DNA from: Candidatus Babeliales bacterium | Lineage (GTDB): Bacteria; Babelota; Babeliae; Babelales; Chromulinivoraceae | Direction of reading: 5' to 3' | Length of the DNA stretch: 64,000 nucleotides | NCBI GenBank assembly: GCA_018061805.1 | Contig: JAGOTL010000002.1 | Span: forward strand, 1-64,000 | Shown: positions 2,371 through 48,431 of the stretch, piece by piece | How the letters are laid out: each line of letters begins with the position of its first letter | Position numbering within the stretch: position 1 is the first letter of the stretch | Program-made: the position numbers and the translations under genes | Notes under the pieces: generated by a model | Database searches by the model: none | The model's input: the letters and a program-made list of their open reading frames with translations, nothing else | Told to the model about the DNA's origin: nothing

Positions 2371-2374
2371 TACT

Positions 2375-2980
2375 ATGGTGCTTACTATGATTATGAATCT
2401 ATTTGTTATTATCTTTATGGGAATTACGCCGTTATTTGCATCAGATAGATTAGTACTATCTAAGAGCAAACAGTTTGCACAAACAAAGAAGTTGTTTATT
2501 AAAATACCTGAAAATACGCACGGACAAGAAATATCAGAGAAAGCATATTATCCAGACAGAGCCGTTACGTTTAAAAGTTTAAATGATTCTATTCTGCAGA
2601 CGCAGCGTTTAATTAAAAAGCCAGAACAAGAGCGTTCTGCAGCAAAAGTGCGTGCAGCATTTTTTGGTATGGTAAGCGGTATATTTGGGACTTTGGTTGC
2701 GAACAGTGAATTTTGTACGCAGCCAGATATTGGTGTATGTTCAGGTTTTGCTTTGTTTCTTATGACAGGTGTTGCAATACACCAAGCAGGAAGTGCTTTA
2801 ACGCGATATCATGGTTACTGGTGTGATATGGCGCTTGATCAAGATTTTGTCAAAGATTTTGTATTACAACGACATACGCCAGAACAAATAAAAGAATTTT
2901 TAGATGATCCGTTTTTGCGCAGTACGCTATCGCCAACATTTGTGAAAATGCTTGAAGCTACGTGGCAAGATAAAGAGTAA
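2375..2980 (+). CDS. Exported protein of unknown function with a hydrophobic hairpin
   Basis: About 201 residues, family not recognised. The start is placed at the ATG at 2375, just after the preceding stop; ATGs at 2387 and 2393 are equally compatible with the signal peptide, which runs to about FAS-DR. After a polar stretch comes a hydrophobic region with a GMVSGIFGTLVA-type helix and a second helix near SGFALFLMTGVA, connected by a short Cys-containing loop. The C-terminal quarter is polar and helical. This suggests a protein anchored in the inner membrane by a helical hairpin. It ends in front of a strong terminator shared with the convergent gene. Confidence 0.6.
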   Translation: MVLTMIMNLFVIIFMGITPLFASDRLVLSKSKQFAQTKKLFIKIPENTHGQEISEKAYYPDRAVTFKSLNDSILQTQRLIKKPEQERSAAKVRAAFFGMVSGIFGTLVANSEFCTQPDIGVCSGFALFLMTGVAIHQAGSALTRYHGYWCDMALDQDFVKDFVLQRHTPEQIKEFLDDPFLRSTLSPTFVKMLEATWQDKE

Positions 2981-3031
2981 TTTTTTGTCTTGATATTATC
3001 AGCTTATGAGACTTTATTTTTTGTTATATAC

Positions 3032-3062
3032 AAAGAGCCTGCCAAAAATGCGCAGGCTCTTT
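3032..3062. terminator. Bidirectional terminator
   Basis: Eleven-base perfect stem AAAGAGCCTGC / GCAGGCTCTTT with a nine-base loop, between two convergent genes. The A and T ends make it suitable on both strands. Confidence 0.85.
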
Positions 3063-3065
3063 CTG

Positions 3066-3356
3066 TTAATCAGGTTCATTTTCAAGTGTAGCAGGGGTTA
3101 TATTTTTTTGGTTTTCTTTGAGTTGTTTGCTTGCAAGTTTTAAAGCAGTTTTGTATTGAGTTGTGCGTGGTTTGTTAGCCTTGTATACGTCGCCTTGGGC
3201 GATAATTTCAGCAGTAATTGTTTTGATGTGTGTATTAACTTCATCAAAAGTTGTTTCAGGATGTGTTTTGATGCTTGTAGCAGCGATAGTTTTTTGTTGT
3301 GGAGGAGCGCCATAACAGTTTAAATTAATCATGACTATAAAAATTAAAGAGCGCAT
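3066..3356 (-). CDS. Small exported protein of unknown function
   Basis: 96 residues with a signal peptide (MRSLIFIVMINLNCYG, cleavage near CYG-AP). The mature part is polar and rich in Thr, Lys and Ala, with a predicted helix around KTALKLASKQLKENQKN. A Shine-Dalgarno-like AAGGA precedes the ATG. The cysteine near the cleavage site could be lipidated, but the preceding residues do not form a clean lipobox. No family was recognised. Confidence 0.6.
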   Translation of the reverse strand: MRSLIFIVMINLNCYGAPPQQKTIAATSIKTHPETTFDEVNTHIKTITAEIIAQGDVYKANKPRTTQYKTALKLASKQLKENQKNITPATLENEPD

Positions 3357-3758
3357 ATCATAATCCTTTTTTTATTATTATGATCATCACCAGCAATGTA
3401 TAGAACATGTTTCATTTTTGCAAGAATTGTTTGTTCTAAACATGCATGTTCAGCATGCGTAATTTTTTTATAAAACTTAATATTTAATAATTGTTTTTTT
3501 ATCTATAAAAATCTTTTTCTGTGCAAAAGTAAATCTATTTGTTGATTTTTTTTGAGCAAAGTTTACTCTTGATCACAATTATGATAGAACAATTTAATTC
3601 ATTGTATGTATGCAAATGCATATTACACACCAGAAGGAATAAGCTCTAAGTTATAAAAAATTACAACATATTTATGATGTTTTATTTAAGCAGAAGACAT
3701 TATAAGTTTTTATATAAACAACCATATTATCGATTATTAAAAACGAGATTTTTAAAAC
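3357..3758. other. 402-bp gene-free divergent promoter region
   Basis: This very AT-rich stretch separates a minus-strand gene from the plus-strand toxin-like gene. No open frame of note and no tRNA-like fold was seen. It contains a 12-bp palindrome, AACATGCATGTT at 3439-3450, and GAACATG near 3403, which may be regulator sites. No terminator was seen. It probably holds the promoters for both flanking genes. Confidence 0.4.
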
Positions 3759-5951
3759 ATGAATTCTAAGCATTTCAATCAACAATATTTTCGCGTTTTA
3801 TTGTTACTTATAGTACCACATGTAGTCCAAGGTATGACATTGACAGGATCTATTAGATCTTGTGATCGTACATCTTCCCATAGTTCTTTCAGTGATGATT
3901 CTAGAAATTCGGGCAATACTAGTGTTTCTCCAAGCAAGTCTTGTAGAGATGAAGATCGTAGTTCTAGTTCTTCTACCGCTAGAACTGAAAGTCATGTAAT
4001 CAGTAGTCAGAAAGAAGAGACTTCTGTTTGTAGTGCTCAATGTTCTACAAAAACAGTTAGCATGCATGAAGAAGTTTCTGTGAAAGAAGAACCTCGTGTT
4101 CGTTCAATAGTAGATGAAGAAGAATATGAAGTTAGAAGGCAAAGAAGAAATGAAGAGTATGAAGAGTCAGAAAGATTATTAAAAAAGGAGGATGAAGAAA
4201 GAGCGCAGTATTGGGAAGAGCTGGCGCTAAAAAAACGTAAAAAAGAGCAAGAAAAAAAGCCACTAAATATTTTGAATGATCAAATAAATAATTATTGGAA
4301 AGCTCCTGAAAGATTAAAATATGCTCATCTTGTTACACCGCTAGATCAAGCGGTTAGAAGAGCAAATGTTACACTTGATCAAAGTTTTGTACAAAGTGAT
4401 TTTAAAAAAGAAATTGTTTTTGTTACAAGAGATATTGATTTAGAAAATAAATTGATATTGGCTTTGTCTATAAAGCGTAAACCTTTATTACACTCAATGT
4501 TTCAAGAGAATCTGTTGTTGCACAAACGACAACCTATGCAAAATAATTCGCTAAAAGAAGATATTATATCCGTACATCAACACATGAAACATAATAATTC
4601 GCAAGATGATACGATAACTGTATTTATTCCAACCAGAGAATATTATCAACAAAATCAAGAAATGTTTTCAGTTCCGTTGAAATGTAACGGATATCCAGTT
4701 TTTATTCCAGATAGATTGAAAATAGTATCACAATCATCGATGAATGCAGGTAATTCTGGCACACCGTGTCACTTAGGCAATAGCTGTGGAAATGGTGGAT
4801 TTTTTGATCCTAAATTACCTAAAGATGACAATGATAGTCCTCTTCAAACATTACTTAATACAGTTGCCATGGTTGCTCTCGGGATGTGTTCGAATAGATC
4901 AGCAATGATAGCAGAATTTGCTGGCCTGAATGCAGTGATGACAGTTGGATCAGCTATGCCGATAGTTGTAGGTGGCGTTGTTATTGGGTATTTGACAAAA
5001 ATGATACTGCCTGGATGTAAGACTCCAATTCTTTGTGAAACAGCGCGAAACACTAAAAATATGAGCAAAGAGGAACTTAGTGAATATATAAAAGCAAAAA
5101 AAATATACGACGCTCTTATTGAGCAGGAAAATATTATTTTTTTGGCTGAAATGGCTAATAAAATAGCATGCCAAAATGGTGTATATGTTAAAGGATCGAG
5201 CAGTGACCCTGTCATAGATGATCCTATTGTGGATCCAAGGCTTAATTATCACCTTGGTCATGGTCAAAGGTTGCTTGATTTATCGACGTCTGTTGCAGGT
5301 AGTAATGATAGATATAGTTTTCATAATGGTAAGGTAATTAAATTTACATGCACATCTGCATGGTATGATCCTACTAAGAAAAAATATAGTGCGGCTGTTG
5401 TAGATGATTTAACGGTTTTATCAAAAGCAGATAAGAAACTTTTGCGCAGATATTATGGTTTTAATGTAAACCATGAGTTGTATTTACAAAAGAAAAAACG
5501 AGAGCGTCAAAAACAGGAGTTGAAAAACTTCGAGAAAGACAGAAAAAAAAGAGAAAATGATGCCAATAGAGGTAATAATTCTGATCCTGATAAAGATCCG
5601 AAGAAGGATCCTAAAGGTAAAGGTGTTGTAGCCGACGCAGCCGCAAATGAAGCTAAGAAAAAGGTAATGAAATATACGGGTAGTCCTAAGCATCACGAAA
5701 ATTCAAAAGGTAAAGCTAGCAAAGCTCCGCATCATGGACAAAAAGTACTAGATAATTCGATTTTGGTTAAAACTAAAGGTAATCAAGGCCTCGAAACTCG
5801 AGTCGGTGTTGAAAATGGTGAAGTTGTAAAATTCCAAGAACAGGCACCTTGTCAATATCATGGATATATAGTAGAAGAAAATTTAGATCAGGATAGTATA
5901 AATACTTTAATAGCAGCAGGTTTGATGCGTACAAATGGAAAATTAAAATGA
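3759..5951 (+). CDS. Exported polymorphic-toxin-like protein with a duplicated C-terminal domain
   Basis: 730 residues. A signal peptide (1-25) is followed by a Ser-rich segment (35-105), a charged Glu/Lys/Arg segment (105-165), an unassigned region (170-330), a Gly/Asn/Cys-rich turn (330-350) and a hydrophobic stretch (365-415), as found ahead of toxin domains. The last 90 residues contain KHHENSKGK (644-652), GQKVLDNSI (660-668), RVGVENGEVVKF (681-692) and YHG (700-702). This pattern recalls tail domains of RHS and hemagglutinin-type toxins, and I recall it as polymorphic toxin type 17, but that name needs a profile search. Residues 497-570 look like a degenerate second copy (GHGQRLLDLS, NGKVIKF, VDDLTVLSKADKKLL) without the YHG motif. 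The stop overlaps the next ATG (ATGA), so the first putative immunity gene is translationally coupled. The toxin role is an inference from architecture and neighbours. Confidence 0.65.
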   Translation: MNSKHFNQQYFRVLLLLIVPHVVQGMTLTGSIRSCDRTSSHSSFSDDSRNSGNTSVSPSKSCRDEDRSSSSSTARTESHVISSQKEETSVCSAQCSTKTVSMHEEVSVKEEPRVRSIVDEEEYEVRRQRRNEEYEESERLLKKEDEERAQYWEELALKKRKKEQEKKPLNILNDQINNYWKAPERLKYAHLVTPLDQAVRRANVTLDQSFVQSDFKKEIVFVTRDIDLENKLILALSIKRKPLLHSMFQENLLLHKRQPMQNNSLKEDIISVHQHMKHNNSQDDTITVFIPTREYYQQNQEMFSVPLKCNGYPVFIPDRLKIVSQSSMNAGNSGTPCHLGNSCGNGGFFDPKLPKDDNDSPLQTLLNTVAMVALGMCSNRSAMIAEFAGLNAVMTVGSAMPIVVGGVVIGYLTKMILPGCKTPILCETARNTKNMSKEELSEYIKAKKIYDALIEQENIIFLAEMANKIACQNGVYVKGSSSDPVIDDPIVDPRLNYHLGHGQRLLDLSTSVAGSNDRYSFHNGKVIKFTCTSAWYDPTKKKYSAAVVDDLTVLSKADKKLLRRYYGFNVNHELYLQKKKRERQKQELKNFEKDRKKRENDANRGNNSDPDKDPKKDPKGKGVVADAAANEAKKKVMKYTGSPKHHENSKGKASKAPHHGQKVLDNSILVKTKGNQGLETRVGVENGEVVKFQEQAPCQYHGYIVEENLDQDSINTLIAAGLMRTNGKLK

Positions 5952-6520
5952 TAGATGTAATTAAATTTAACATAACAGAAAAGCAATATATACAAGTTAT
6001 ACCAGAACCATTTCAAGAGGGTGATTGCGAAGTATGTGCTATGTGTGATGTTTATTATATCGATGAAGATATAAAGTTAAATATACGTTTTGGGTATACA
6101 GAAATAGAAACGTTTAATGGGGTTGTGGGTATTAAAAATTTTGATGATTTATTAGATAATAAATTATTTTTTGATGTTCAGCAGCGTATAGATCCTGGTT
6201 TTGAGTATAATCAGTATTGTCAAGAATTGATAGCTCGAAGTGATGTTATGAATAAATATTTTTTTGAAAGTAATAGTCATAAAGCTATATTGCCATATTA
6301 TATGAGTTGGTTTTACAATGATAAAGATGGAAATATAGTTTTTGAAATTACGCCTTTTTATCCATGGCATTATGCAACAAAGAAAAAATGTTCAGATAAA
6401 ATACCGTACAAAGAATGGATTAAAAACTATCAGGTAACAATTCGTAAGATAATTCCTAAAGAAACGCTTATTGCGTGGGATAATCAGGCTAAGTTATACA
6501 ATCATTGGAAGCATGATTAA
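5948..6520 (+). CDS. Putative immunity protein 1
   Basis: 190 residues, no signal peptide, acidic and rich in aromatics. It overlaps the stop of the toxin-like gene by four bases. It is a close paralogue of the protein at 7225-7788: both begin with KQYIQVIPEP, share WFYNDKDGNI and FEITPFYPWHYATKK, and end with KLYNHWKH. Cytoplasmic location, small size and position directly behind an exported toxin-like gene are typical of cognate immunity proteins. The sequence family was not named; neutralisation of the upstream protein is inferred. Confidence 0.6.
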   Translation: MIDVIKFNITEKQYIQVIPEPFQEGDCEVCAMCDVYYIDEDIKLNIRFGYTEIETFNGVVGIKNFDDLLDNKLFFDVQQRIDPGFEYNQYCQELIARSDVMNKYFFESNSHKAILPYYMSWFYNDKDGNIVFEITPFYPWHYATKKKCSDKIPYKEWIKNYQVTIRKIIPKETLIAWDNQAKLYNHWKHD

Positions 6521-6542
6521 GGGTCGTGTAATATACAAAAAA

Positions 6543-7157
6543 ATGAATCAGAGTTTAAATTTAAAAATTAACACAATAGATTCTTTATTGATAGCAACAA
6601 AAAGTGACGATTATGATTTTATCATTGATCTGAACAACGCTGTTTTTGTCGCGTATTTACAACATCAAAATAATAAGATTAAGATTCATAGGTTTGCGGT
6701 TGGTTATGATTTGTATTATTTTTCTGAGCATATACAAAAATGTATAGAAGGAAAAATAAATATTCCAATAGGATTAGATCGTAATATTGATTTAGGTTTA
6801 TTGTGGAATGAACATTGGCAAAAAATATCTTTAGCTGAAGATTCTGGTCATCCACTTCCTACTTGGAAATGGGTAGCGAGTGATACTGTTTTTTTTCAAA
6901 ATAAATCTGATGGAGACTTTGGTAATAATACTTTTTTATATAATGATCAGCAAGGTAATATAATTTTGCAGGTATCATTAGCTTATCCATGGTTTTTTAC
7001 AGATGCGCCATCGAATGAACTGAATATTTCTTACTACGATTGGTTATTAAAATATAAGATTGTATATAAATCAATTATTTCTCACGATATTGCTCAGCAA
7101 TGGGTACGACAATTGAATGAGTTGTATGCGCAGCTTGATAAAAATATGCAAGTATAA
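6543..7157 (+). CDS. Putative immunity protein 2, divergent paralogue
   Basis: About 204 residues, no signal peptide. The C-terminal half aligns with the two neighbours (NDQQGNIILQV, LAYPWFF, YYDWLLKYKIVYKSII, QQWVRQLNELY against their NDKDGNI, FYPWHYA, YKEWIKNYQVTIRKII and AWDNQAKLY), while the N-terminal half is strongly diverged. The ATG at 6543 lies 22 bases after the preceding stop. An ATG at 6513 overlaps the preceding gene and has GGAAG upstream, so it is a real alternative. Divergence next to two near-identical copies suggests it protects against a different toxin variant, or is decaying. Confidence 0.55.
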   Translation: MNQSLNLKINTIDSLLIATKSDDYDFIIDLNNAVFVAYLQHQNNKIKIHRFAVGYDLYYFSEHIQKCIEGKINIPIGLDRNIDLGLLWNEHWQKISLAEDSGHPLPTWKWVASDTVFFQNKSDGDFGNNTFLYNDQQGNIILQVSLAYPWFFTDAPSNELNISYYDWLLKYKIVYKSIISHDIAQQWVRQLNELYAQLDKNMQV

Positions 7158-7224
7158 ATTGTGATTATTATAGAATATAATTTTGTATTCATCTTAATAA
7201 AATTAAACATTGTAATGTGAAAAA

Positions 7225-7788
7225 ATGAAATTTCAAATAACAGATAAGCAATATATACAAGTTATACCAGAACCTATTCCTGAAGGTTACTGTGAAGTAT
7301 GTGCTCGGTCTGATGTTGATTATGTCGATGAAGAGTTAGGATTAACCATTAAATTTGGACAGACAGAGGCAGATATGTTTTATGGAGGGTTTGGAACAAC
7401 AGATTATGTGGAAGATTTAATTAATAATAAAAAATATTTTGATCAAGATGTTACACCAGACTTAGGTTTTGAGTGGAATCAATTTTTTCAAGGTCTTATA
7501 AAAGATACTGATGTGCTAGAAAATTATCATTTTGTAGGAAATGATCATACAGAAAAACGTCCATATTTTAACAGTTGGTTTTACAATGATAAAGATGGCA
7601 ATATTATTTTTGAAATTACACCTTTTTATCCGTGGCATTATGCAACAAAAAAGCAGTGCCCAGATAAAATACCGTATAAAGAATGGATTAAAAATTATCA
7701 GGTAATTGTGCGCAAAGTAATTCCTAAAGAAACGCTTATTGCGTGGGATAAACAAGCAAAATTATATAATCATTGGAAGCATGCTTAA
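7225..7788 (+). CDS. Putative immunity protein 3
   Basis: 187 residues, cytoplasmic and acidic. It is closely similar to the protein at 5948-6520 over its whole length, with identical stretches such as IPYKEWIKNYQV and IPKETLIAWD. The middle, about residues 40-110, is the most variable part, which is where specificity would be expected if these are immunity proteins. It is the last gene of the toxin/immunity locus and is closed by a terminator eight bases downstream. No distinct family name was recognised. Confidence 0.6.
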   Translation: MKFQITDKQYIQVIPEPIPEGYCEVCARSDVDYVDEELGLTIKFGQTEADMFYGGFGTTDYVEDLINNKKYFDQDVTPDLGFEWNQFFQGLIKDTDVLENYHFVGNDHTEKRPYFNSWFYNDKDGNIIFEITPFYPWHYATKKQCPDKIPYKEWIKNYQVIVRKVIPKETLIAWDKQAKLYNHWKHA

Positions 7789-7795
7789 AAGAATT

Positions 7796-7826
7796 AAAAA
7801 AAGGGCTCGAAATTGAGCCCTTTTTT
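7796..7826. terminator. Bidirectional terminator after the toxin/immunity locus
   Basis: Stem GGGCTC-GAAATT-GAGCCC (7803-7820), flanked by an A run on the left and six T on the right. It lies between convergent genes. Confidence 0.85.
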
Positions 7827-7849
7827 ATCGAAAATTTGTATTCAGTAGT

Positions 7850-8296
7850 TTACGAATACTGTTTTAATAAACCTATAATTTTATGATTTTTGTTCATATG
7901 TTTTTTTGTGAATGCTGGAGGATGTTGAGCGTAGTGTAGCGCTGTAAGGTTACGAGAGCTTGTATCTGCTATCGATGATTTAATACCGCCTGTGTTATGA
8001 TACAATAGATAACGTAAACAGTTTGCAGCGTTCAGCCATGTAGCAGCAATTAACGGAGTTGCGTATTCTTGTGACCAAGGTAGGTTAAGGTAATGTGTAT
8101 TCCAAGCAAATGTTGGATTTTCTTTGATAAACGCTTTTAAGCTGGAAACATTATCGCGATAAAAAATATCGTATAGTTGTGTAACAGCTGATGGTGCGAC
8201 CGAAGTAACGGTATGTTTAGCATTCAGCTCTGATATCGTTACGGTAGTTGCTGTTAAGGCTAAAATAGCGTACCACGCTACAAATCTATGATTCAT
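7850..8296 (-). CDS. Short exported ankyrin-like protein
   Basis: 148 residues with a signal peptide (MNHRFVAWYAILALTATTVT). The start was set at the ATG with GGAG eight bases upstream; a longer in-frame reading would run through the leader repeat. The mature part holds roughly two ankyrin-like units: FAWNTHYLNLPWS followed by ATPLIAATWLNAANCLRYLL, then LTALHYAQHPP. It is a clear paralogue of the protein at 12015-12467, and the two flank the tandem family between them. A host-directed role is plausible for exported ankyrin proteins of intracellular bacteria but is not shown. Confidence 0.65.
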   Translation of the reverse strand: MNHRFVAWYAILALTATTVTISELNAKHTVTSVAPSAVTQLYDIFYRDNVSSLKAFIKENPTFAWNTHYLNLPWSQEYATPLIAATWLNAANCLRYLLYHNTGGIKSSIADTSSRNLTALHYAQHPPAFTKKHMNKNHKIIGLLKQYS

Positions 8297-8360
8297 GACA
8301 ATCTCCATTTTTAATAACTTTCTACTATTAGTATGCCCGAAAAAGACCTTTAAAAACAAG
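8297..8360 (-). repeat. Leader repeat, copy 1
   Basis: About 64 bp in front of the exported ankyrin-like gene. In gene direction it contains a weak stem ACCTT-loop-AAGGT with a T run, the box GGGCATACT (possible -10 CATACT), and AAAAATGGAG just ahead of the start. The same block precedes three neighbouring genes (9092, 10058, 10973), so it was probably duplicated together with them. Confidence 0.7.
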
Positions 8361-8371
8361 GTTTTTGAGTG

Positions 8372-9091
8372 TTAATTGTCTGGCATGCGGTCTACGATAT
8401 TTGGTATTTCTGCTTTTACGTTTTCCCATGTTTGTTTGGTTTTATCCCACCAAGTTTGTTCTTGTATTTCTTTACCTTTACTTGAAGGTAGTCGCACAGC
8501 GCCTGGGCGATTACCATGAGGTAAATATCGTAGCACACCTGGGTGAGGTGGATACATAGCATTCTGTAAAGCAACATTCTTTTGAAGAGATTCTTGTATT
8601 AATTGTGCAGCCTTACTATTATCCATGCTAAGATTGTGTAAATATAAATCCCAGTTAAATCTTTTGCGAGTTAAAACTTGAATGGTTTGGATATCTCGAA
8701 TACGTAGGTTTGGTGGATTTGCTATGGCTTTGTTTAATAATTTAAGAATATCACGCGACACGAGTAGTTCGAATGCGCTTTGGTTGGAGTTATAAAAATT
8801 GCCTTTGCGTAGACGGTAGTTTAAGTAATTTGGTAAACTATGTCGTAAAGCAATTGCTGAGGTATCAAAAAAATCAAGAGGTAATTCTGGTAATTTGCTT
8901 AATTGTTCTTCTAAAGAAAGAATATCACTATCAGAAAGAATATTACCATCGGAAGTTTCGTTGAGTTCAAGTATTTTTTTAATTCTATAAAATTCATCCC
9001 AAGCTTTTCTATCGTCTTTAGAGGTTTGTATATCTATGGTAGTAATTGATATGACGCAAAAAATCCACAGTACGTATTTTTTAAGGTTCAT
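8372..9091 (-). CDS. Exported tandem-family protein A with conserved C-terminal tail
   Basis: 239 residues. The start is the ATG that follows ATGGAGATTACA (GGAG ribosome site), giving the signal peptide MNLKKYVLWIFCVISITT. The N-terminal half is specific to this copy. From about residue 150 it resembles its neighbours (LTRKRFNWDLYL, LQNAMYPPHPG), and it ends with the shared tail RPGAVRLPS, then TWWDKTKQTWENVK, then NIVDRMPD. The Asp-Trp repeat-like segment hints at a degenerate ankyrin/helical fold. No known family was recognised; the tail conservation suggests a common sorting or binding role. Confidence 0.65.
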   Translation of the reverse strand: MNLKKYVLWIFCVISITTIDIQTSKDDRKAWDEFYRIKKILELNETSDGNILSDSDILSLEEQLSKLPELPLDFFDTSAIALRHSLPNYLNYRLRKGNFYNSNQSAFELLVSRDILKLLNKAIANPPNLRIRDIQTIQVLTRKRFNWDLYLHNLSMDNSKAAQLIQESLQKNVALQNAMYPPHPGVLRYLPHGNRPGAVRLPSSKGKEIQEQTWWDKTKQTWENVKAEIPNIVDRMPDN

Positions 9092-9154
9092 TGTAATCTC
9101 CATTTTTAATAACCCTCTACTATCAGTATGCCCGAAAAAAGACCTTTAAAAACA
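9092..9154 (-). repeat. Leader repeat, copy 2
   Basis: Near-identical to copy 1: stem ACCTT/AAGGT with a T run, GGGCATACTGATAGTAG, then AAAAATGGAG before the start codon. It probably combines a terminator for the upstream gene with the promoter and ribosome site of the next. Confidence 0.7.
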
Positions 9155-9166
9155 AGGTTTTGTATG

Positions 9167-10057
9167 TTATTTATCGGGCATGCGGTCTACGATATTTGGT
9201 ATTTCTGCTTTTACGTTTTCCCATGTTTGTTTGGTTTTATCCCACCAGGTTTTTTGTGGAGGTATTGAGGGTAGTCGTACAGCGCCTGGGCGATTACCAT
9301 GAGGCATAGCCCCTGGGTGCTTCGGTGTCATGGCATTGCGTAAAGAAGGATCCATTTGTAGGGCACGTTGCATGTCTATTCCTTGGGGAAGGCTTAAATA
9401 TGTACTCCAATCAAAGCCATGTTTTGTTAACACTCTGATGACATCTCTGGTTCTTTCACGCCATGGTTTATACTTAGGAAGGCCTTGGATGCTTTTTAAT
9501 GTAACCGCTGAAAGCTGGCTCATGATTCCTTCTTCATTAAGCACATCTTGCATTGTACTAGGATGATTATAGAGAGATTCTGTTATTATAGGTATCATAC
9601 CCGTTGTTATCTTAACATAATCAGGGATAGGTACTGCTTGGATTATGTACTGTTGATATAGTTTTTCATTTTGAGATAACATATAATCTAGATATCGTGG
9701 TTTCAATTCCATAATCGCATTTAAAATGTCATAGCTTTCAAATACGATAACGGGTGTTTGCTGAAATCTTTCTATGTATTTATTTTCTATGTCTATAGCT
9801 AAAATAGGATCCAGGTCAGCTGCCTTAGGATCAACGTCGCTCAAGACAACCGGGTAGCCCATGGTATGGTGAGTTAAATCTTCTAAATCTTTGTAGGCAC
9901 GAGTTTTTCGATGTTTTATCCAGTCACGAAATTCTAGATCTGCTGTTGTTAAATATTTTGTATCGACTTCTGATCGATCATCTGAAGCTGATAGCGTGTG
10001 CATGCCTATGGTCGACAAGCAGCAAAACATTAAGAATAAATACGTATTAAGGTTCAT
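9167..10057 (-). CDS. Exported tandem-family protein B with conserved C-terminal tail
   Basis: 296 residues, with signal peptide MNLNTYLFLMFCCLSTIGM. It is the closest relative of protein C (10142-10972). Shared blocks are KPRYLDYMLSQNEKLY, the segment after VLTKHGFDWSTYLSLPQGID, and LRNAMTPKHPGA. The C-terminus is almost identical to that of protein A (TWWDKTKQTWENVK, VDRMPDK). Sharing its body with one neighbour and its tail with another suggests gene conversion or module exchange within the array. The function is unknown. Confidence 0.68.
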   Translation of the reverse strand: MNLNTYLFLMFCCLSTIGMHTLSASDDRSEVDTKYLTTADLEFRDWIKHRKTRAYKDLEDLTHHTMGYPVVLSDVDPKAADLDPILAIDIENKYIERFQQTPVIVFESYDILNAIMELKPRYLDYMLSQNEKLYQQYIIQAVPIPDYVKITTGMIPIITESLYNHPSTMQDVLNEEGIMSQLSAVTLKSIQGLPKYKPWRERTRDVIRVLTKHGFDWSTYLSLPQGIDMQRALQMDPSLRNAMTPKHPGAMPHGNRPGAVRLPSIPPQKTWWDKTKQTWENVKAEIPNIVDRMPDK

Positions 10058-10120
10058 TGTAATCTCCATTTTTAATAACCTTTTACTATCAGTATGCCCG
10101 AATAAGGTCTTTAAAAACAA
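10058..10120 (-). repeat. Leader repeat, copy 3
   Basis: Same block as copies 1 and 2 with a few substitutions (for example TTATTCGGGCATACTGATAG). It directly precedes the ATG of exported protein B. Confidence 0.7.
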
Positions 10121-10141
10121 GATTTTTGGGCATTTTTTAGA

Positions 10142-10972
10142 TTAAACATCAGTTAACTTGTCAGCAATTTTGCTTAATGTTTGTTTGGTACGATCCCACC
10201 AGGTTGGTTGATGAATTTCGGGCACTTGTGATGAAATTGGCGGTAACTTAACAGCTCCTGGGTGTTTAGGTGTCATGGCATTGCGTAAAGTAGGATCATT
10301 TTGTAGGGCTTGTCGCATATCTATTCCTTGGGGAAGGCTTAAATATGTACTCCAATCAAAGCCATGTTTTGTTAAGACGTGTATCATTGCTATAGATTTT
10401 TCACGCCATGGCAGATATAAGGGAGTGCCTAGAGTTATTTCTAGCATATTTTGTGAAAACTCGTCGATGGGTCTATCCATAAGATCGTTCACGATAGTAG
10501 TATTATCCACAAGAAAATCTTTCATGGTTTTACCATAGTCAAAAGGGCTTTCTAGTGCTGTGGTGTAATAATCAGGGAGTGGGGCTTTTTGAATAATATA
10601 TTTTGTATATAATCTCTTATTTTGAGACAACATATAATCTAAATATTTTGGTTTCAGCTGATCAATTGCATTTATAATGTCATAACCTGAAAAAACAATG
10701 TCGGGTGATTGTTTAAGTCTATCTATAAAAGTGTTTTCTATTTTTGTACCTAGCACAGGATCAGTTGGATTATATATATCGATAGCGGTAGATTCCATCT
10801 CGAGCTTAGGATCTGCTTTCGATAGTCTTTCTAAGTCTTGGTATAAAATATCTTTTGGGTTGGTATAGATATCTGGGTATAAAATTAAAGTACCGCGTGC
10901 AGCTAGTAAAAAAGGCGTGTTGCTTATTGATAAAAAGCATACAGCCAAAAATATATATTTTTTTAAATTCAT
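10142..10972 (-). CDS. Exported tandem-family protein C with conserved C-terminal tail
   Basis: 276 residues. Signal peptide MNLKKYIFLAVCFLSISN; GGGGG lies upstream of the ATG. Body blocks are shared with protein B (KPKYLDYMLSQNKRLY, HGFDWSTYLSLPQGIDM, LRNAMTPKHPGAV). The tail is of a second type, TWWDRTKQTLSKIADKLTDV, shared with protein D rather than with A and B. So two tail variants exist in the array. No family was recognised. Confidence 0.68.
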   Translation of the reverse strand: MNLKKYIFLAVCFLSISNTPFLLAARGTLILYPDIYTNPKDILYQDLERLSKADPKLEMESTAIDIYNPTDPVLGTKIENTFIDRLKQSPDIVFSGYDIINAIDQLKPKYLDYMLSQNKRLYTKYIIQKAPLPDYYTTALESPFDYGKTMKDFLVDNTTIVNDLMDRPIDEFSQNMLEITLGTPLYLPWREKSIAMIHVLTKHGFDWSTYLSLPQGIDMRQALQNDPTLRNAMTPKHPGAVKLPPISSQVPEIHQPTWWDRTKQTLSKIADKLTDV

Positions 10973-11040
10973 GATTTAAACCCCCATTTTTAATGACCTT
11001 CTAGTATCAGTATGCTTTAAAAATACCTTTAAAAACAAGG
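10973..11040 (-). repeat. Leader repeat, copy 4 (diverged)
   Basis: This copy keeps ACCTTGTTTTTAAAGGT-like and GCATACTGATA-type sequence, but the CGGG box is replaced by AAA and the ribosome site is GGGGG instead of GGAG. It precedes exported protein C. Confidence 0.6.
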
Positions 11041-11060
11041 ATTTTGTGGGCTAAAACGTA

Positions 11061-11816
11061 TTAAACATCAGTTATTTTGTCTGCGATGTTGCTTAATGTT
11101 TGTTTGGTGCGATCCCACCAGGTTGGTTTAGGTTGTGGTATTGAAGGTAACTTTACAGCGCCTGGCCGATACAGATTCATAGCGCACAATGTATCATGAT
11201 TAGCGTACATGAGCTTTTTAGCATCTTGCATGTTTATGAGGTCAAAACAGTTTGTAGTGGAATATCTATAGGTGTTAAATATTTTATTCCAATCAACGTT
11301 ATGTTTGGTAAAAACCTTGGCGAGTTTGATATATCGTGTATGCATAGCAAGATTGTTTTCGTGTGTGTTCTGGTTTTGAACATCAAATGCTTGTTGGCTG
11401 TGCTGCGCTATTTTACGCTTGAAATATATTATGCCTTTGATTGTTTCGATTGCTGCATAAGAATTAAGTGAAAAATCACCTTCATAGTTTGAAATAAGGT
11501 AATCTAGATAATCAGGTAAAGCATAGAAGCGAGCGTTAAAAATATCAAGTTCTGTTACAGGCAGTATCAATGTTGGATGTATTGCAAGTAATAAAAATTC
11601 TTTTTTTTTAAGTTCAGAGGCGTTGAAACGATGTTGAGCAAGAGTGTCGTATATTGTAACCAGTTGATATATAGCCAAAGCTTTGTATGCTTTATCCAGT
11701 TCTTGTTTTCTTTCTAGAATGTAATGTGATCTAGCAGTGTTTTCAGATGAGCATATCGTCACGAACATTGTCCAGATAAGGCAAAATGTACATAAAATAT
11801 ATTTGTATGTATTCAT
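11061..11816 (-). CDS. Exported tandem-family protein D with conserved C-terminal tail
   Basis: 251 residues with signal peptide MNTYKYILCTFCLIWTMFVTIC. It is the most diverged of the four bodies but keeps the segment AKVFTKHNVDWNKIF and the tail RPGAVKLPSI, then TWWDRTKQTLSNIADKITDV. Its upstream region lacks most of the leader repeat seen before the others. Position and tail place it in the family; the function is unknown. Confidence 0.65.
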   Translation of the reverse strand: MNTYKYILCTFCLIWTMFVTICSSENTARSHYILERKQELDKAYKALAIYQLVTIYDTLAQHRFNASELKKKEFLLLAIHPTLILPVTELDIFNARFYALPDYLDYLISNYEGDFSLNSYAAIETIKGIIYFKRKIAQHSQQAFDVQNQNTHENNLAMHTRYIKLAKVFTKHNVDWNKIFNTYRYSTTNCFDLINMQDAKKLMYANHDTLCAMNLYRPGAVKLPSIPQPKPTWWDRTKQTLSNIADKITDV

Positions 11817-11848
11817 GAAAAAACCTTTTTAAAAAATAGTTTTGCATG

Positions 11849-11926
11849 TTATTTGTCTGGCATGCGGTCTACGATTTTTGGTATTTCTGCTTTTATGTTT
11901 TCCCATGTTTGCTTGGTTCTATATAT
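11849..11926 (-). pseudogene. Decayed C-terminal remnant of a tandem-family gene
   Basis: The minus strand encodes IYRTKQTWENIKAEIPKIVD and then RMPDK and a stop, nearly identical to the tails of proteins A and B. A TGA lies immediately upstream of the remnant, and the body of the gene is gone. This shows loss as well as gain of copies in the array. Confidence 0.75.
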
Positions 11927-12014
11927 TCATTATGTTTAAAAAAAGTAAGGACCGATAGAAAGAGCATTTTTTTGCTTCATTATATCAGTCCCAAGATTAA
12001 TGTTAATGTTTGGT

Positions 12015-12467
12015 TTATTTAAATTTGTTAATTAAGTTAGCAATTTTTGTATATTTGTTAGCTATGTCATTTTTAAATGGCATTTGAGCAGTGGTTAAGT
12101 TTGGAGGGTTTTGAGCATATTGTGACGCTGTAAAGCCATGCGAGCTTTTTGCTCCCCATGAATTTCTGATGCTACCTATATTATGGTTTAAAAGGTAGGT
12201 AAGACAATTGACTGCTCCTAGGTATGTAGCAGCAATTAAAGGTGTTGCAGTTTCACCTGACCATGGTAAATGTTCATATTGTTCGTTCCAATTAAACTTT
12301 GGATTTTTTTCAACAAAGCTCTGCAAATCTGTAACGTTATCGGCTTTAAAAATGTTTAATAAATGATTTATAGTAGCAGGTTTCCCGGTTGATTTGGTGT
12401 GAGGAGTTGCGTAGAAAACAGATGAAATGCTCAGCATAGTAAGCATTATGCAACGTAAAATTTTCAT
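12015..12467 (-). CDS. Short exported ankyrin-like protein, paralogue of 7850-8296
   Basis: 150 residues with signal peptide MKILRCIMLTMLSISSVFYA. The mature part matches the protein at 7850-8296: DNVTDLQSFVEKNPKFNW, then ATPLIAATYLGAVNCLTYLL, then FTASQYAQNPPNL. These are about two ankyrin-type units. AAGGAG lies just upstream of the ATG. Its predicted promoter abuts the (ATAG)12 microsatellite, so its expression could vary between clones. A role at the host interface is inferred only from the class of protein. Confidence 0.68.
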   Translation of the reverse strand: MKILRCIMLTMLSISSVFYATPHTKSTGKPATINHLLNIFKADNVTDLQSFVEKNPKFNWNEQYEHLPWSGETATPLIAATYLGAVNCLTYLLNHNIGSIRNSWGAKSSHGFTASQYAQNPPNLTTAQMPFKNDIANKYTKIANLINKFK

Positions 12468-12507
12468 AAAGGTACTCCTTTTTTAGTGGACGATATTATT
12501 TATACAC

Positions 12508-12585
<78 letters not shown>

Positions 12586-12717
12586 CTTGGAGCTGAAAGG
12601 CAGAGTATAAAAATAAAAAAAATGGTTGTTTTTTCCGTATATTAAAGGTTTCATTTGTGTGATATAAGTTGTTTTTGTTGTAGTAATCTTTAAAAAATCT
12701 TTTAGACAATTAATATG

Positions 12718-13041
12718 TCAGGTTTTTTTTCGTAATTCTAGAGCGTGCTGCTCAAGTTCTTTTGAGATTGTTTGACGACAATCATCAATGAACAAATCTA
12801 ACTCTATACCGGACATTTCATTATCTAAGCATCTTTTTTGAGCAACGTATTGGTCATTTGGCATAACGTATGGAATTATAGTATCTGTTGTAGCTTGGTA
12901 TGTATCTGGTGGTAAAAGAAATATTTCTGATTTGCGGTGTAGGTCATAAGCGACGACGGCCATATTTGATGATGTATCAGATGTATAGAGTACCATAGAC
13001 AAGCAGAACGTTATAAGAAACAAGAGTGTTTTTGGAGTCAT
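12718..13041 (-). CDS. Small exported protein of unknown function
   Basis: 107 residues with signal peptide MTPKTLLFLITFCLSMVLYTSD. The mature part contains two cysteines (in QKRCLDNEM and IDDCRQTI) that could form a disulfide, and a charged helical end. It starts five bases after the stop of the gene at 13047-13424, so the two form an operon. No family was recognised. Confidence 0.6.
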   Translation of the reverse strand: MTPKTLLFLITFCLSMVLYTSDTSSNMAVVAYDLHRKSEIFLLPPDTYQATTDTIIPYVMPNDQYVAQKRCLDNEMSGIELDLFIDDCRQTISKELEQHALELRKKT

Positions 13042-13046
13042 AAAAT

Positions 13047-13424
13047 TTATATATGTTCTAGGGGAATATACAGGTGTGCATCGTACAATTCTTGTAAAGC
13101 TGCAGCATGGTCTTGCAAGAGCGTTTCAAGTAGTAACGGTTTAGATAACATGAGCACTGTTTTCATAGTAGCGATGTAGATTGTACTTTTGTTTTGTAAG
13201 CAGTTTTGAAACGTTGTAATGCAACTATCTATAGTTGTTGCAATAGCAGATGGCTCCATAGTTGCTCCTGCAAGCATGGATGCTATATTGGTAAGCTCTT
13301 GAAAACATTCAATATTGATAACAGATAGTCGTTGCGCAACAATTGAATGATTGGGCAGTGTGATTGGTGTTGTCGATATATTGCTACATAAACTTACAAG
13401 AGTGATTAAAACTATTTTTTTCAT
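13047..13424 (-). CDS. Small exported helical protein of unknown function
   Basis: 125 residues with signal peptide MKKIVLITLVSLCSNIST. The mature part is predicted helical, with cysteines in NIECFQEL, DSCITTFQNCLQNK. A strong AAGGAG precedes the ATG. First gene of a two-gene operon. No family was recognised. Confidence 0.62.
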   Translation of the reverse strand: MKKIVLITLVSLCSNISTTPITLPNHSIVAQRLSVINIECFQELTNIASMLAGATMEPSAIATTIDSCITTFQNCLQNKSTIYIATMKTVLMLSKPLLLETLLQDHAAALQELYDAHLYIPLEHI

Positions 13425-13452
13425 AGGATCTCCTTTTTAAAAAGGTATCCTA

Positions 13453-14364
13453 TCATGCATAAAAACCTTTTGAAAGATATGCACGGCCAGAATCACCGAA
13501 GATACAAACAGCAACATCGTTTTCTGATAATTTGTCGCCGTAGGTGTGCGCAGCATAGGCAACAGCGCCACTGCTTGGTCCAACCAGTAAGCCATGCTGG
13601 TGTGCCATAGTTTTCATGAACTGCATGCCTTGTTCGTCAGTTACTTCGATAAATTCATCAATCACGCTGTTATCTAAGACAGGAGAATCAGAATCAACAC
13701 CGATACCTTCAAGTTTGTATGGTTTAGGGTTACCTTTGGTAGAGCGATATGAATTTGCAGCATCTACACCAATAACTTTAATGTTAGGGTTCATTTCTTT
13801 TAAATATTTACCTGCACCACTCACGGTACCGCCAGTTCCTGCTGCAGCAATAAAATGAGTAATTTTGCCTTCTGTTTGTTCCCAAATTTCAGGTCCCAAG
13901 TGTGTGTAATGTGCAATGCTGTTAATTGTGCTGCAATATTGATTTGGCATATATGAATTTGGATTTTCTTTATTCATTTTTACCGCTTGAGAATGATAGC
14001 TGTTTGGATCCTGAAGTGACATAGTGCCTGGAAATGTCATAACTTTTGCGCCATACGCTTTGATGGTATCAATTTTTTCTTTGCTATGTTTGTCCATGCA
14101 GCAAATCGTGACATCGTAACCTTTTATAGCGCCAATCATTGCAAGTGAAATGCCGTGGTTGCCTGATGATGCATCAATAAGTGTCATGCCAGGTTTGAGT
14201 AAGCCTTGTTGTTCTGCCCACTCAACCATGTACAAAGCTGACCGATCTTTAATGCTGCCGCCTGGATTGAGGTATTCTAATTTTGCATACATAGTGCCAG
14301 GTTTTTGATCAAAAATCTTAACAAGTAGTGTGTTACCAATAGAGTTCAGTAATGATTTTTTCAT
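13453..14364 (-). CDS. PLP-dependent cysteine synthase / cystathionine beta-synthase family enzyme
   Basis: 303 residues of the fold-type II PLP family that makes cysteine from O-acetylserine (CysK) or cystathionine from serine and homocysteine. NPGGSIKDR carries the PLP lysine K39; SSGNHG (66-71) is the substrate loop, and GTGGTVSGAG binds the cofactor phosphate. EGIGVDSDSPVLD and GPSSGA are also typical. The start was moved to the ATG behind GAAGGA, which removes an overlap with the upstream atpE gene. CysK usually has TSGNTG, so SSGNHG is unusual and may change specificity. No serine acetyltransferase is nearby, so the sulfur source is unclear. Confidence 0.82.
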   Translation of the reverse strand: MKKSLLNSIGNTLLVKIFDQKPGTMYAKLEYLNPGGSIKDRSALYMVEWAEQQGLLKPGMTLIDASSGNHGISLAMIGAIKGYDVTICCMDKHSKEKIDTIKAYGAKVMTFPGTMSLQDPNSYHSQAVKMNKENPNSYMPNQYCSTINSIAHYTHLGPEIWEQTEGKITHFIAAAGTGGTVSGAGKYLKEMNPNIKVIGVDAANSYRSTKGNPKPYKLEGIGVDSDSPVLDNSVIDEFIEVTDEQGMQFMKTMAHQHGLLVGPSSGAVAYAAHTYGDKLSENDVAVCIFGDSGRAYLSKGFYA

Positions 14365-14380
14365 GTAAATCCTTCGTGTA

Positions 14381-15328
14381 TTAAAAAAGCAGCATAACAA
14401 TAGCGATTAAGAGTCCATAAATTGCAAATGAGTCAATCATAGCAAGTGCAAGCATAGTGATCTTTGATAAAGATGGATATTGATCAAGATGCAAGGCGAT
14501 TTGTGTGCATGCCATCGCCCCAGTTCTACCAGAATTTATACCCGGAGAAATAGTGCTTAGGCCGATACAAATTGCTGCTGCTATAAATTGCCAACTTTGA
14601 ATAAATGATTCAGGATTAATTGCAGTGGTTAAAATCATAAGCGATATCAACAATGAAAAGATAGCAGGTGTTTCAATAATTGCTTCGCAAATAAACGTGA
14701 ATGTCATAATTTTGCCAAAGGCCTGTTTGTTGGTACCTACCCCGTGGCATGCTGCAAAAGCAAACAAGCTGAGTCCGATCGATGGTCCAATGCAACCGAG
14801 TCCTATGCTAATACCCGCAGCAAGCATTTGGAAACCATGTTGGACAGTTGCAGCGGAGTGTATTTTTGATTTTATAAGCAACGATATCAACATGCCAAAC
14901 ATGTTAGGCGTCATGATCAGAGTTTGTGTAATGAGCATTAAATTTAGCAGCTTTGTCTGAAGGAAGGGTTGTGAGGCTACACTGTGGCATGTTGCAACAG
15001 CAGGAAACGCTGAAGCAATCCCAGCACAAAAACCGGAAAGGCCCATAGCGATAGCAATACCAGCTGCACCGTAGTTGGCGTAGTTCGAATTTTGAAGTGT
15101 GTTTATATCGCCCAGCATCATGATTGATATCACGATACCCATAACGGCAGCAGTTTCGGTAATTGCCATACCGATCACGCAAAGTTTTGAAATCGCATTT
15201 GCAGATGTTGGTTGGCGGTTCATTGCTTGGAGTGCTGCGGCACCAATAAAACCTTGGCCAATAGATGTACCAAGAGCAGATAGCACTGCTGGTACAATGG
15301 CGTATAAAATATACAACATATCGATCAT
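14381..15328 (-). CDS. atpE: F0 ATP synthase subunit c, four-hairpin fusion
   Basis: Subunit c forms the membrane rotor of ATP synthase; the usual protein is about 80 residues with two helices. This one has 315 residues and eight helices, an 80-residue unit repeated four times. The ion-binding position gives E58, M139, E219 and D299, spaced 81, 80 and 80, so the second unit lacks the carboxylate. The first unit also keeps the RQP loop (38-40) and GQG with Q25 followed by E58-T59, which resembles Na+-binding c subunits; the others lack the glutamine. The ATG overlaps the stop of the subunit a gene (ATGA), indicating coupled synthesis. It could run as a V-type-like pump or as an ATP synthase of altered ion/ATP ratio; direction cannot be told. 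Confidence 0.85.
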   Translation of the reverse strand: MIDMLYILYAIVPAVLSALGTSIGQGFIGAAALQAMNRQPTSANAISKLCVIGMAITETAAVMGIVISIMMLGDINTLQNSNYANYGAAGIAIAMGLSGFCAGIASAFPAVATCHSVASQPFLQTKLLNLMLITQTLIMTPNMFGMLISLLIKSKIHSAATVQHGFQMLAAGISIGLGCIGPSIGLSLFAFAACHGVGTNKQAFGKIMTFTFICEAIIETPAIFSLLISLMILTTAINPESFIQSWQFIAAAICIGLSTISPGINSGRTGAMACTQIALHLDQYPSLSKITMLALAMIDSFAIYGLLIAIVMLLF

Positions 15329-46921: not shown

Positions 46922-47524
46922 ATGAATTTTAAAAAGTATGTATTTTGTTTGTTATTTGTCAGTATGATTGCTATGGGTAGTACGAGGTATTATACACCTA
47001 ATGAATTATCTCATAGGGTGTCATTATTTAATACGTATACGCCTTCTGAATTAAATCGTCTGAAAATAAAATCACTATTACGTCAAATACCAGGCATTAA
47101 AATCACTCAAAAATTGTTAGATGATATTGATGATCGTCAATCTTGGGTAGAGAGGTATATTCGTGAAAAAATACAAGATATGAATGACGATGTGTCACTT
47201 GAGCAACAAGAACGTGCAGTAAAAGCTGCTAGGCTTTTATTGATACATTTAACACATGGAGCACCGAGTTTTTTTTATGTCACTCCTTCAGAATTAGATA
47301 CACTATTGGCAGAAGAGCAAAACGTTAGTCAACTACCAAAATTTAATAGACATAAGTTGGATAGTTTGAAAAACAATGAAAAGTTACAAGCGGCAATACA
47401 AGAATTAAATTTTCAGGATGAGCAAGATAGATATAATTTTGCCGTGCAAGATGCTGAATTGGAAGCATTAGAACAGTCGTTGCGACCATCGCAATATGTT
47501 TATTATGATATAGCTACGCCCTAG
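46922..47524 (+). CDS. Exported helical protein, array member 4
   Basis: 200 residues with signal peptide MNFKKYVFCLLFVSMIAMGS. The body is helical and acidic. The stretch with LLDDIDDRQSWVERYIREKI, LLLIHLTHG and VTPSELDTLLAEE aligns with ILDEVDEQ, MRDYIVDMIEDL, LLYYMDHSG and MSPEYLRALTEE of the next gene, so the two are paralogues. No family was recognised. Confidence 0.62.
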   Translation: MNFKKYVFCLLFVSMIAMGSTRYYTPNELSHRVSLFNTYTPSELNRLKIKSLLRQIPGIKITQKLLDDIDDRQSWVERYIREKIQDMNDDVSLEQQERAVKAARLLLIHLTHGAPSFFYVTPSELDTLLAEEQNVSQLPKFNRHKLDSLKNNEKLQAAIQELNFQDEQDRYNFAVQDAELEALEQSLRPSQYVYYDIATP

Positions 47525-47666
47525 AATTACTCAAAGTTGGTTTATGAACATATATCTTTGACAAGATTGTATTTTCTTGTACAAAAAAAGGCCCTGAAAG
47601 CTTGTTTTTTGGGTGTTTGTATTGATAAGCTATATGTATGGTTACTGAAAATGGAGAGTTTTGATC

Positions 47667-48431
47667 ATGAATTTTAAAAAATATGTATTGTTAGTATTGT
47701 GTTGTGTAGCCTCTGCAGGAGTTATACGTAGTTCTGCCAGTTTAAATAAATATGGTGAACGCGTTGTTCCTCTTTCTGCTTTGCAACAAGAAGATATGCA
47801 AGCTTTGTTATTAAATGATACATGGTTGAATGACGTACAAACAAATTTAGACCTTTATTTGCAGATGCTCGATATGCAACAACATATAAATTTGTTTCAA
47901 ATTGGATTGAGTTATCGAAATTATAAAATGTTGAAAGACCAGTTGAATTATAAGCTTACTGAAAGTATTTATTGTCCTATATTTTATAAAAATAGTGATA
48001 CTCAAGTAGCGCGGGACAAAGCAGAAAAAAAGATACAAGCCATACAAAAATTGTTGGATTATGTAACGTTGCTTGAATATCAAACTAAGGAACAAGATTT
48101 TGAACGACTTGAGCATCAACGATTACTTAGAGACGTTAATGCTGTTGTGTTACGAGCGTATGCAAAACGAATTTTAGATGAAGTAGATGAGCAGTTGTTG
48201 CAAGCAATTATTAATAGAGAGCCTACTATGCGAGATTATATCGTTGATATGATCGAAGATTTGGATGATGATTATAAAGAGTCTTTTGAAGAACAAATTA
48301 ATGAAGCGCGCGATGGGTTATTATATTATATGGATCATTCTGGATTTAACTTTAATATGTCGCCAGAATATTTAAGAGCTTTAACAGAAGAAACGGTTGA
48401 TGATGTATCAGTTGAAGCACAACACGAATAA
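47667..48431 (+). CDS. Exported helical protein, array member 5
   Basis: 254 residues from the ATG at 47667 (GGAGAG upstream), with signal peptide MNFKKYVLLVLCCVASAGVI nearly identical to that of the preceding gene. Helical, acidic mature part; its C-terminal half is paralogous to the protein at 46922-47524. A terminator lies 28 bases downstream, so the exported array ends here. No family was recognised. Confidence 0.62.
   Translation: MNFKKYVLLVLCCVASAGVIRSSASLNKYGERVVPLSALQQEDMQALLLNDTWLNDVQTNLDLYLQMLDMQQHINLFQIGLSYRNYKMLKDQLNYKLTESIYCPIFYKNSDTQVARDKAEKKIQAIQKLLDYVTLLEYQTKEQDFERLEHQRLLRDVNAVVLRAYAKRILDEVDEQLLQAIINREPTMRDYIVDMIEDLDDDYKESFEEQINEARDGLLYYMDHSGFNFNMSPEYLRALTEETVDDVSVEAQHE

Follow-up and report, generated by a model that had tools for sequence, protein, structure and literature searches.

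Among the parasitic Dependentiae, the available portions of the published accounts of Babela massiliensis and Chromulinavorax destructans describe an abundance of exported orphan proteins and ankyrin proteins, thought to act on the host, together with tandem duplications and islands enriched in ankyrin proteins (PMC4378268, PMC6561590). The array of four genes described here, which lies in a 64,000-nucleotide stretch of DNA (the window), resembles those islands, as far as these portions portray them, in belonging to the same phylum, in its exported-type proteins of unassigned function, in its tandem duplication and in its weakly ankyrin-like neighbours. It differs from them in that its proteins are without credible homologue in 100 other Dependentiae genomes (0 credible matches to a profile of the four proteins). 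For the constant C-terminal tail and the spacer repeat of the array, no mention was found in the available portions of the literature on Dependentiae and Babela or on tandem paralogues and gene conversion, which is weak evidence. Measured against those partial accounts, the array fits the exported-orphan and ankyrin kind of the phylum, and its mosaic tail-spacer repeat is the distinctive feature.

Two better-known arrangements offer a further comparison. Polymorphic toxins have a constant N-terminal part and a variable C-terminal toxin domain, with exchange by recombination; the array shares with them, and with other cassette-swapping exported proteins, the combination of a constant and a variable part and the recombinational exchange, but its constant part is C-terminal and none of its four proteins matches a domain at E ≤ 0.001 in Pfam, NCBIfam or PHROGs. 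C-terminal sorting signals (LPXTG, PEP-CTERM, T9SS CTD) are found on many unrelated proteins, and those of the LPXTG and PEP-CTERM types include a membrane-spanning stretch. Like them, the array tail is a constant C-terminal segment on exported-type proteins, whereas it is confined to one array, has no transmembrane stretch and matches no model.

The source genome (936,256 bases in 51 contigs) belongs to the Dependentiae (TM6), where it is placed by its cysteine synthase gene (window 13453–14400), which is 76–80% identical to copies in three Candidatus Dependentiae/Babeliales genomes. From the coordinates, the array lies inside an 11,082-base interval (window 2371–13452) between this gene and a metallo-beta-lactamase-fold (MBL) gene. 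In four family relatives the same interval measures 954, 1,010, 632 and 714 bases and holds other small proteins with hydrophobic N-termini, a comparison that covers the four of seven relatives in which both ends were found; G002, whose contig ends about 3 kb past cysteine synthase, G004, in which the MBL-fold gene was not found in a stretch of about 12 kb, and G007 are not among them. The interval seems to be a site that accumulates exported-type proteins. The array and its surroundings comprise, in descending coordinates:

12015–12467, minus strand: ank1, upstream paralogue of ank2, 43% identical to it
11979–12006, minus strand: promoter-like site, 11/12, with TG before the second hexamer, the top score of 22 in the region
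11852–11920, minus strand: orphan CD-type tail remnant, 23 codons, no body
11061–11816, minus strand: gene A, 251-residue exported-type protein with its own body and an AB-type tail
11064–11162, minus strand: tail of A, from GAVKLP to the end
10973–11060, minus strand: spacer A to B
10142–10972, minus strand: gene B, 276 residues, with the body common to B and C and an AB-type tail
10145–10258, minus strand: tail of B
10058–10141, minus strand: spacer B to C, same repeat
9167–10057, minus strand: gene C, 296 residues, with a B-like body and a D-like tail
9170–9286, minus strand: tail of C
9092–9166, minus strand: spacer C to D, same repeat
8372–9091, minus strand: gene D, 239 residues, with a CD-type tail
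8375–8503, minus strand: tail of D
8297–8371, minus strand: spacer D to ank2, same repeat
7850–8296, minus strand: ank2, small exported-type protein downstream of D, with weak ankyrin similarity
7797–7826, minus strand: terminator-like hairpin with a T run, after ank2

The open reading frames lie where a first-pass annotation of this DNA had placed four tandem minus-strand genes, at 8372–11816. The frame of gene C opens at 10120 and its ATG at 10057 is preceded by GGAG, and gene D has a second in-frame ATG at 9103. The signal peptides that the annotation had read in these proteins correspond to a hydrophobic 12-mer near the N-terminus of all four (Kyte-Doolittle 2.2–2.35), the single feature from which we infer that they are exported. 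The body said to be common to B and C was borne out, with 111 of 199 aligned residues identical between these two, against 28–57 of 147–163 in the other five pairs; between the B and C bodies, dS is 0.97 and dN 0.36. All four C-termini carry the reported tail, consisting of GAV(K/R)LP, a linker of 6–12 residues, TWWD(K/R)TKQT and a predicted helical end, and a comparison of the end sequences agrees with the two tail types that had been claimed, namely LS(N/K)IADK(I/L)TDV in A and B and WENVKAEIPNIVDRMPD(K/N) in C and D. The orphan tail, situated before gene A and with in-frame stops upstream, is the trace of a fifth gene copy.

Bodies and tails of these genes have different histories. In one common codon alignment of the four genes, which has long gaps in the bodies and served both of the following analyses, we counted the sites that divide the genes two and two, over 96 gap-free columns of the tail and 402 columns of the body. 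The tail supports the split AB/CD at 23 sites, BC/AD at 0 and AC/BD at 1, while the corresponding counts in the body are 12, 40 and 14 (Fisher p 7e-11 for the difference in grouping). A breakpoint scan of the MaxChi type gave, for gene C, 158 B-like and 67 D-like informative sites to the left of the best breakpoint and 0 and 24 to the right, and for gene B, 55 A-like and 149 C-like sites to the left and 25 and 2 to the right, values matched in neither gene by any of 20,000 column permutations. Both breakpoints fall between HPGA and TWWD. In the C protein the HPGA of B occurs together with MPHGNRPGAVRLP, which is close to the D sequence, and this places the joint in their vicinity. The array genes are mosaic: in C, a body resembling that of B carries a tail resembling that of D.

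The shared stretch extends past the tail, through the non-coding spacer and up to the start of the next gene. Over the six pairs, the four full spacers (75–88 bases) match at 58–64 of 74–84 aligned bases, or 69–86%, with 64/74 for C to D against D to ank2, and the leader of ank2 is the same repeat as that of the array genes. Elsewhere in the genome there are no full copies of the spacer, the three further matches covering 19–22 bases only. The promoter-like site before the orphan tail, together with the strong terminator-like hairpin after ank2, suggests that the array through ank2 may form one transcript; overall, promoter-like sites number 22 against 24.6 in shuffles, and are thus not in excess.

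Elsewhere in the window, on the plus strand, a 730-residue exported-type protein is followed by three smaller proteins (3759–7788), of which the products of 5948–6520 and 7225–7788 have a near-identical C-terminal part. A family search with the proteins of this group gave no match, and by eye we take the group to resemble a toxin with immunity genes. A pair of adjacent proteins, of exported type or with such genes nearby, is encoded at 46922–48431, also on the plus strand, the second of which resembles the array proteins, by profile comparison, in the signal-peptide region only.

By calculation the tail is amphipathic and not transmembrane. No membrane-spanning stretch was found in it, the mean Eisenberg hydrophobicity of its 18-mers being −0.09 to −0.29, and the hydrophobic moment of its helix is 0.55 in A, 0.57 in B and 0.43 in C, values reached by 70, 50 and 185 of 20,000 shuffles, respectively; the moment of the C/D tail is moderate only. 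AlphaFold2 models place the tail helix at residues 214–228 in D and 271–291 in C, with low confidence (mean pLDDT 57.3 and 52.0).

We read the array as a lineage-specific and probably co-transcribed set of exported orphan paralogues with recombined, homogenised 3' ends and a putatively selected docking tail, and give this reading a probability of roughly 55%. Tandem duplication would have built the array, and recombination within a repeat of tail, stop, spacer and start would have swapped and homogenised the 3' ends as the bodies diverged; most simply, the tandem copies would have undergone unequal exchange or gene conversion, and one copy or more would have been lost. Selection would keep the tail as a short amphipathic helix behind its linker, and this helix would most likely dock the exported protein on the membrane surface or on a common partner, with the variable helical bodies giving different contacts. 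The array proteins are probably host-directed or envelope proteins.

The conserved spacers and the bodiless fifth tail mean that much of the tail sharing is accounted for by duplication and recombination, and one could go further and suppose that it reflects nothing else: the 3' end would have been recently duplicated, or converted, along with the spacer, and the tail would have no function of its own. Such a history would account for the conservation of the non-coding spacer together with the tail, for the presence of every tail in one array and for the persistence of a tail remnant without a body, but we consider it unlikely in view of the substitutions in the tail itself. In the stretch that begins at TWWD and closes the protein, the C–D pair shows 3 synonymous changes and 1 nonsynonymous change and the A–B pair 4 and 2, respectively; over both pairs together, 3 nonsynonymous changes at about 115 sites compare with 7 synonymous changes at about 26 (p 0.0003, on 10 differences in all), and the nonsynonymous changes are also rarer than the differences in the spacer, 36 at 158 positions (p 8e-7). 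TWWD and TKQT, in addition, are invariant across two tail types that otherwise differ. The scarcity of nonsynonymous relative to synonymous changes points to selection on the peptide and speaks against mere recent copying, and the tail peptide appears, on these small numbers, to be under purifying selection. Of the case that the first-pass annotation had named as its own refutation, a tail limited to these genes through very recent duplication with no difference in body divergence, one half applies: among the genomes searched the tail is indeed confined to these genes, but body and tail differ in history.

The annotation had itself proposed a sorting or anchoring signal, or a binding module used in common. 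If the tail were recognised by a dedicated machinery for export or anchoring, in the manner of a C-terminal sorting domain, this would suit a constant C-terminus on exported-type proteins whose bodies differ, but in the genome itself the pattern and tail-profile searches found five tail matches, all inside the array. With a profile built from them, the four gene tails reach E values of 9e-24 to 3e-20 in this genome, more than chance would give. Across 101 genomes, the DNA pattern WW(D/E)xTK matched 5 times outside this genome against 6 times for a reversed control. None of the four array proteins matches a family of NCBIfam, which we take to include models of sorting signals (LPXTG, PEP-CTERM, T9SS), even at E ≤ 1, and the tail is without a transmembrane stretch. 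The tail profile matched at E ≤ 1 in 16 other genomes, with a best value of 0.02; among the nine of 16 loci outside the genome that were checked, one falls close to where a plausible frame ends, and the others are at least 54 residues away from the C-terminus or belong to frames whose shortness prevents a judgement. That one, in a distant member of the Dependentiae (G019:C7:129482–129520), is a 182-codon open frame ending in STWWDTTKSYAKSMGSKLAGVKDRLFGAKEVKA, akin to the array tails, with STWWDTTK about 31 residues from its end; it would favour a wider signal, and we treat it as a lead, not as evidence. We hold a dedicated sorting machine to be highly improbable and set aside the notion of a genome-wide signal, while a local docking or membrane-binding module is possible, given that the tail is predicted to be amphipathic and is apparently under purifying selection. 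No relatives were found in viral contigs or phages, and no array DNA in plasmids. A weak match in another genome (G037, E 0.005) was discarded as antisense inside another frame. In the genome of the array itself, profile comparison confined the likeness of a weak match at 47667–47990 (E 0.18) to the signal-peptide region. Three PDB sequence matches (E 0.43–0.86) were taken as chance.

It is also conceivable, though very doubtful, that the bodies are strongly diverged ankyrin-type repeats and the array one more secreted ankyrin cluster. The two flanking paralogues, ank1 and ank2, are weakly similar to Ank_2 (E 0.00078 and 0.0014, below the gathering score), the low-confidence models of the array proteins (mean pLDDT 57 and 52) are helical, and the stretch VLTKHGFDW, present in B and C, looks by eye like ankyrin repeats; but none of the four array proteins matches an Ank model in Pfam at E ≤ 1, and when their profile is compared with that of the flanking proteins the probability is 0.3%, so that an ankyrin link of the bodies is unsupported. 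With the model of D (pLDDT 57, low confidence), Foldseek gave no match at E ≤ 0.001, the best being E 0.48, and VIA gave Z of at most 5.4, many of the top rows being helical repeats (armadillo, HEAT) with Z about 5, which we took as generic. The family of ank1 and ank2 has one further member, in another genome (G003, L098:7719–8639), with a related C-terminal part and a long proline- and alanine-rich stretch.

In a parasitic phylum about which little is known, the array illustrates clearly, on a small scale, how exported orphan proteins evolve as mosaics. The reach of the case is limited to a single array in a single genome among those searched, and the tail is a defined module of 19–26 residues, open to direct localisation tests. 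One could also speculate, as a long shot, that the tail-spacer repeat acts as a recombination joint through which exported bodies, as they diversify, acquire a docking helix kept by selection, making up a cassette system for host-directed proteins. If true, such a system would let a reduced genome remodel the proteins that it directs at its host.
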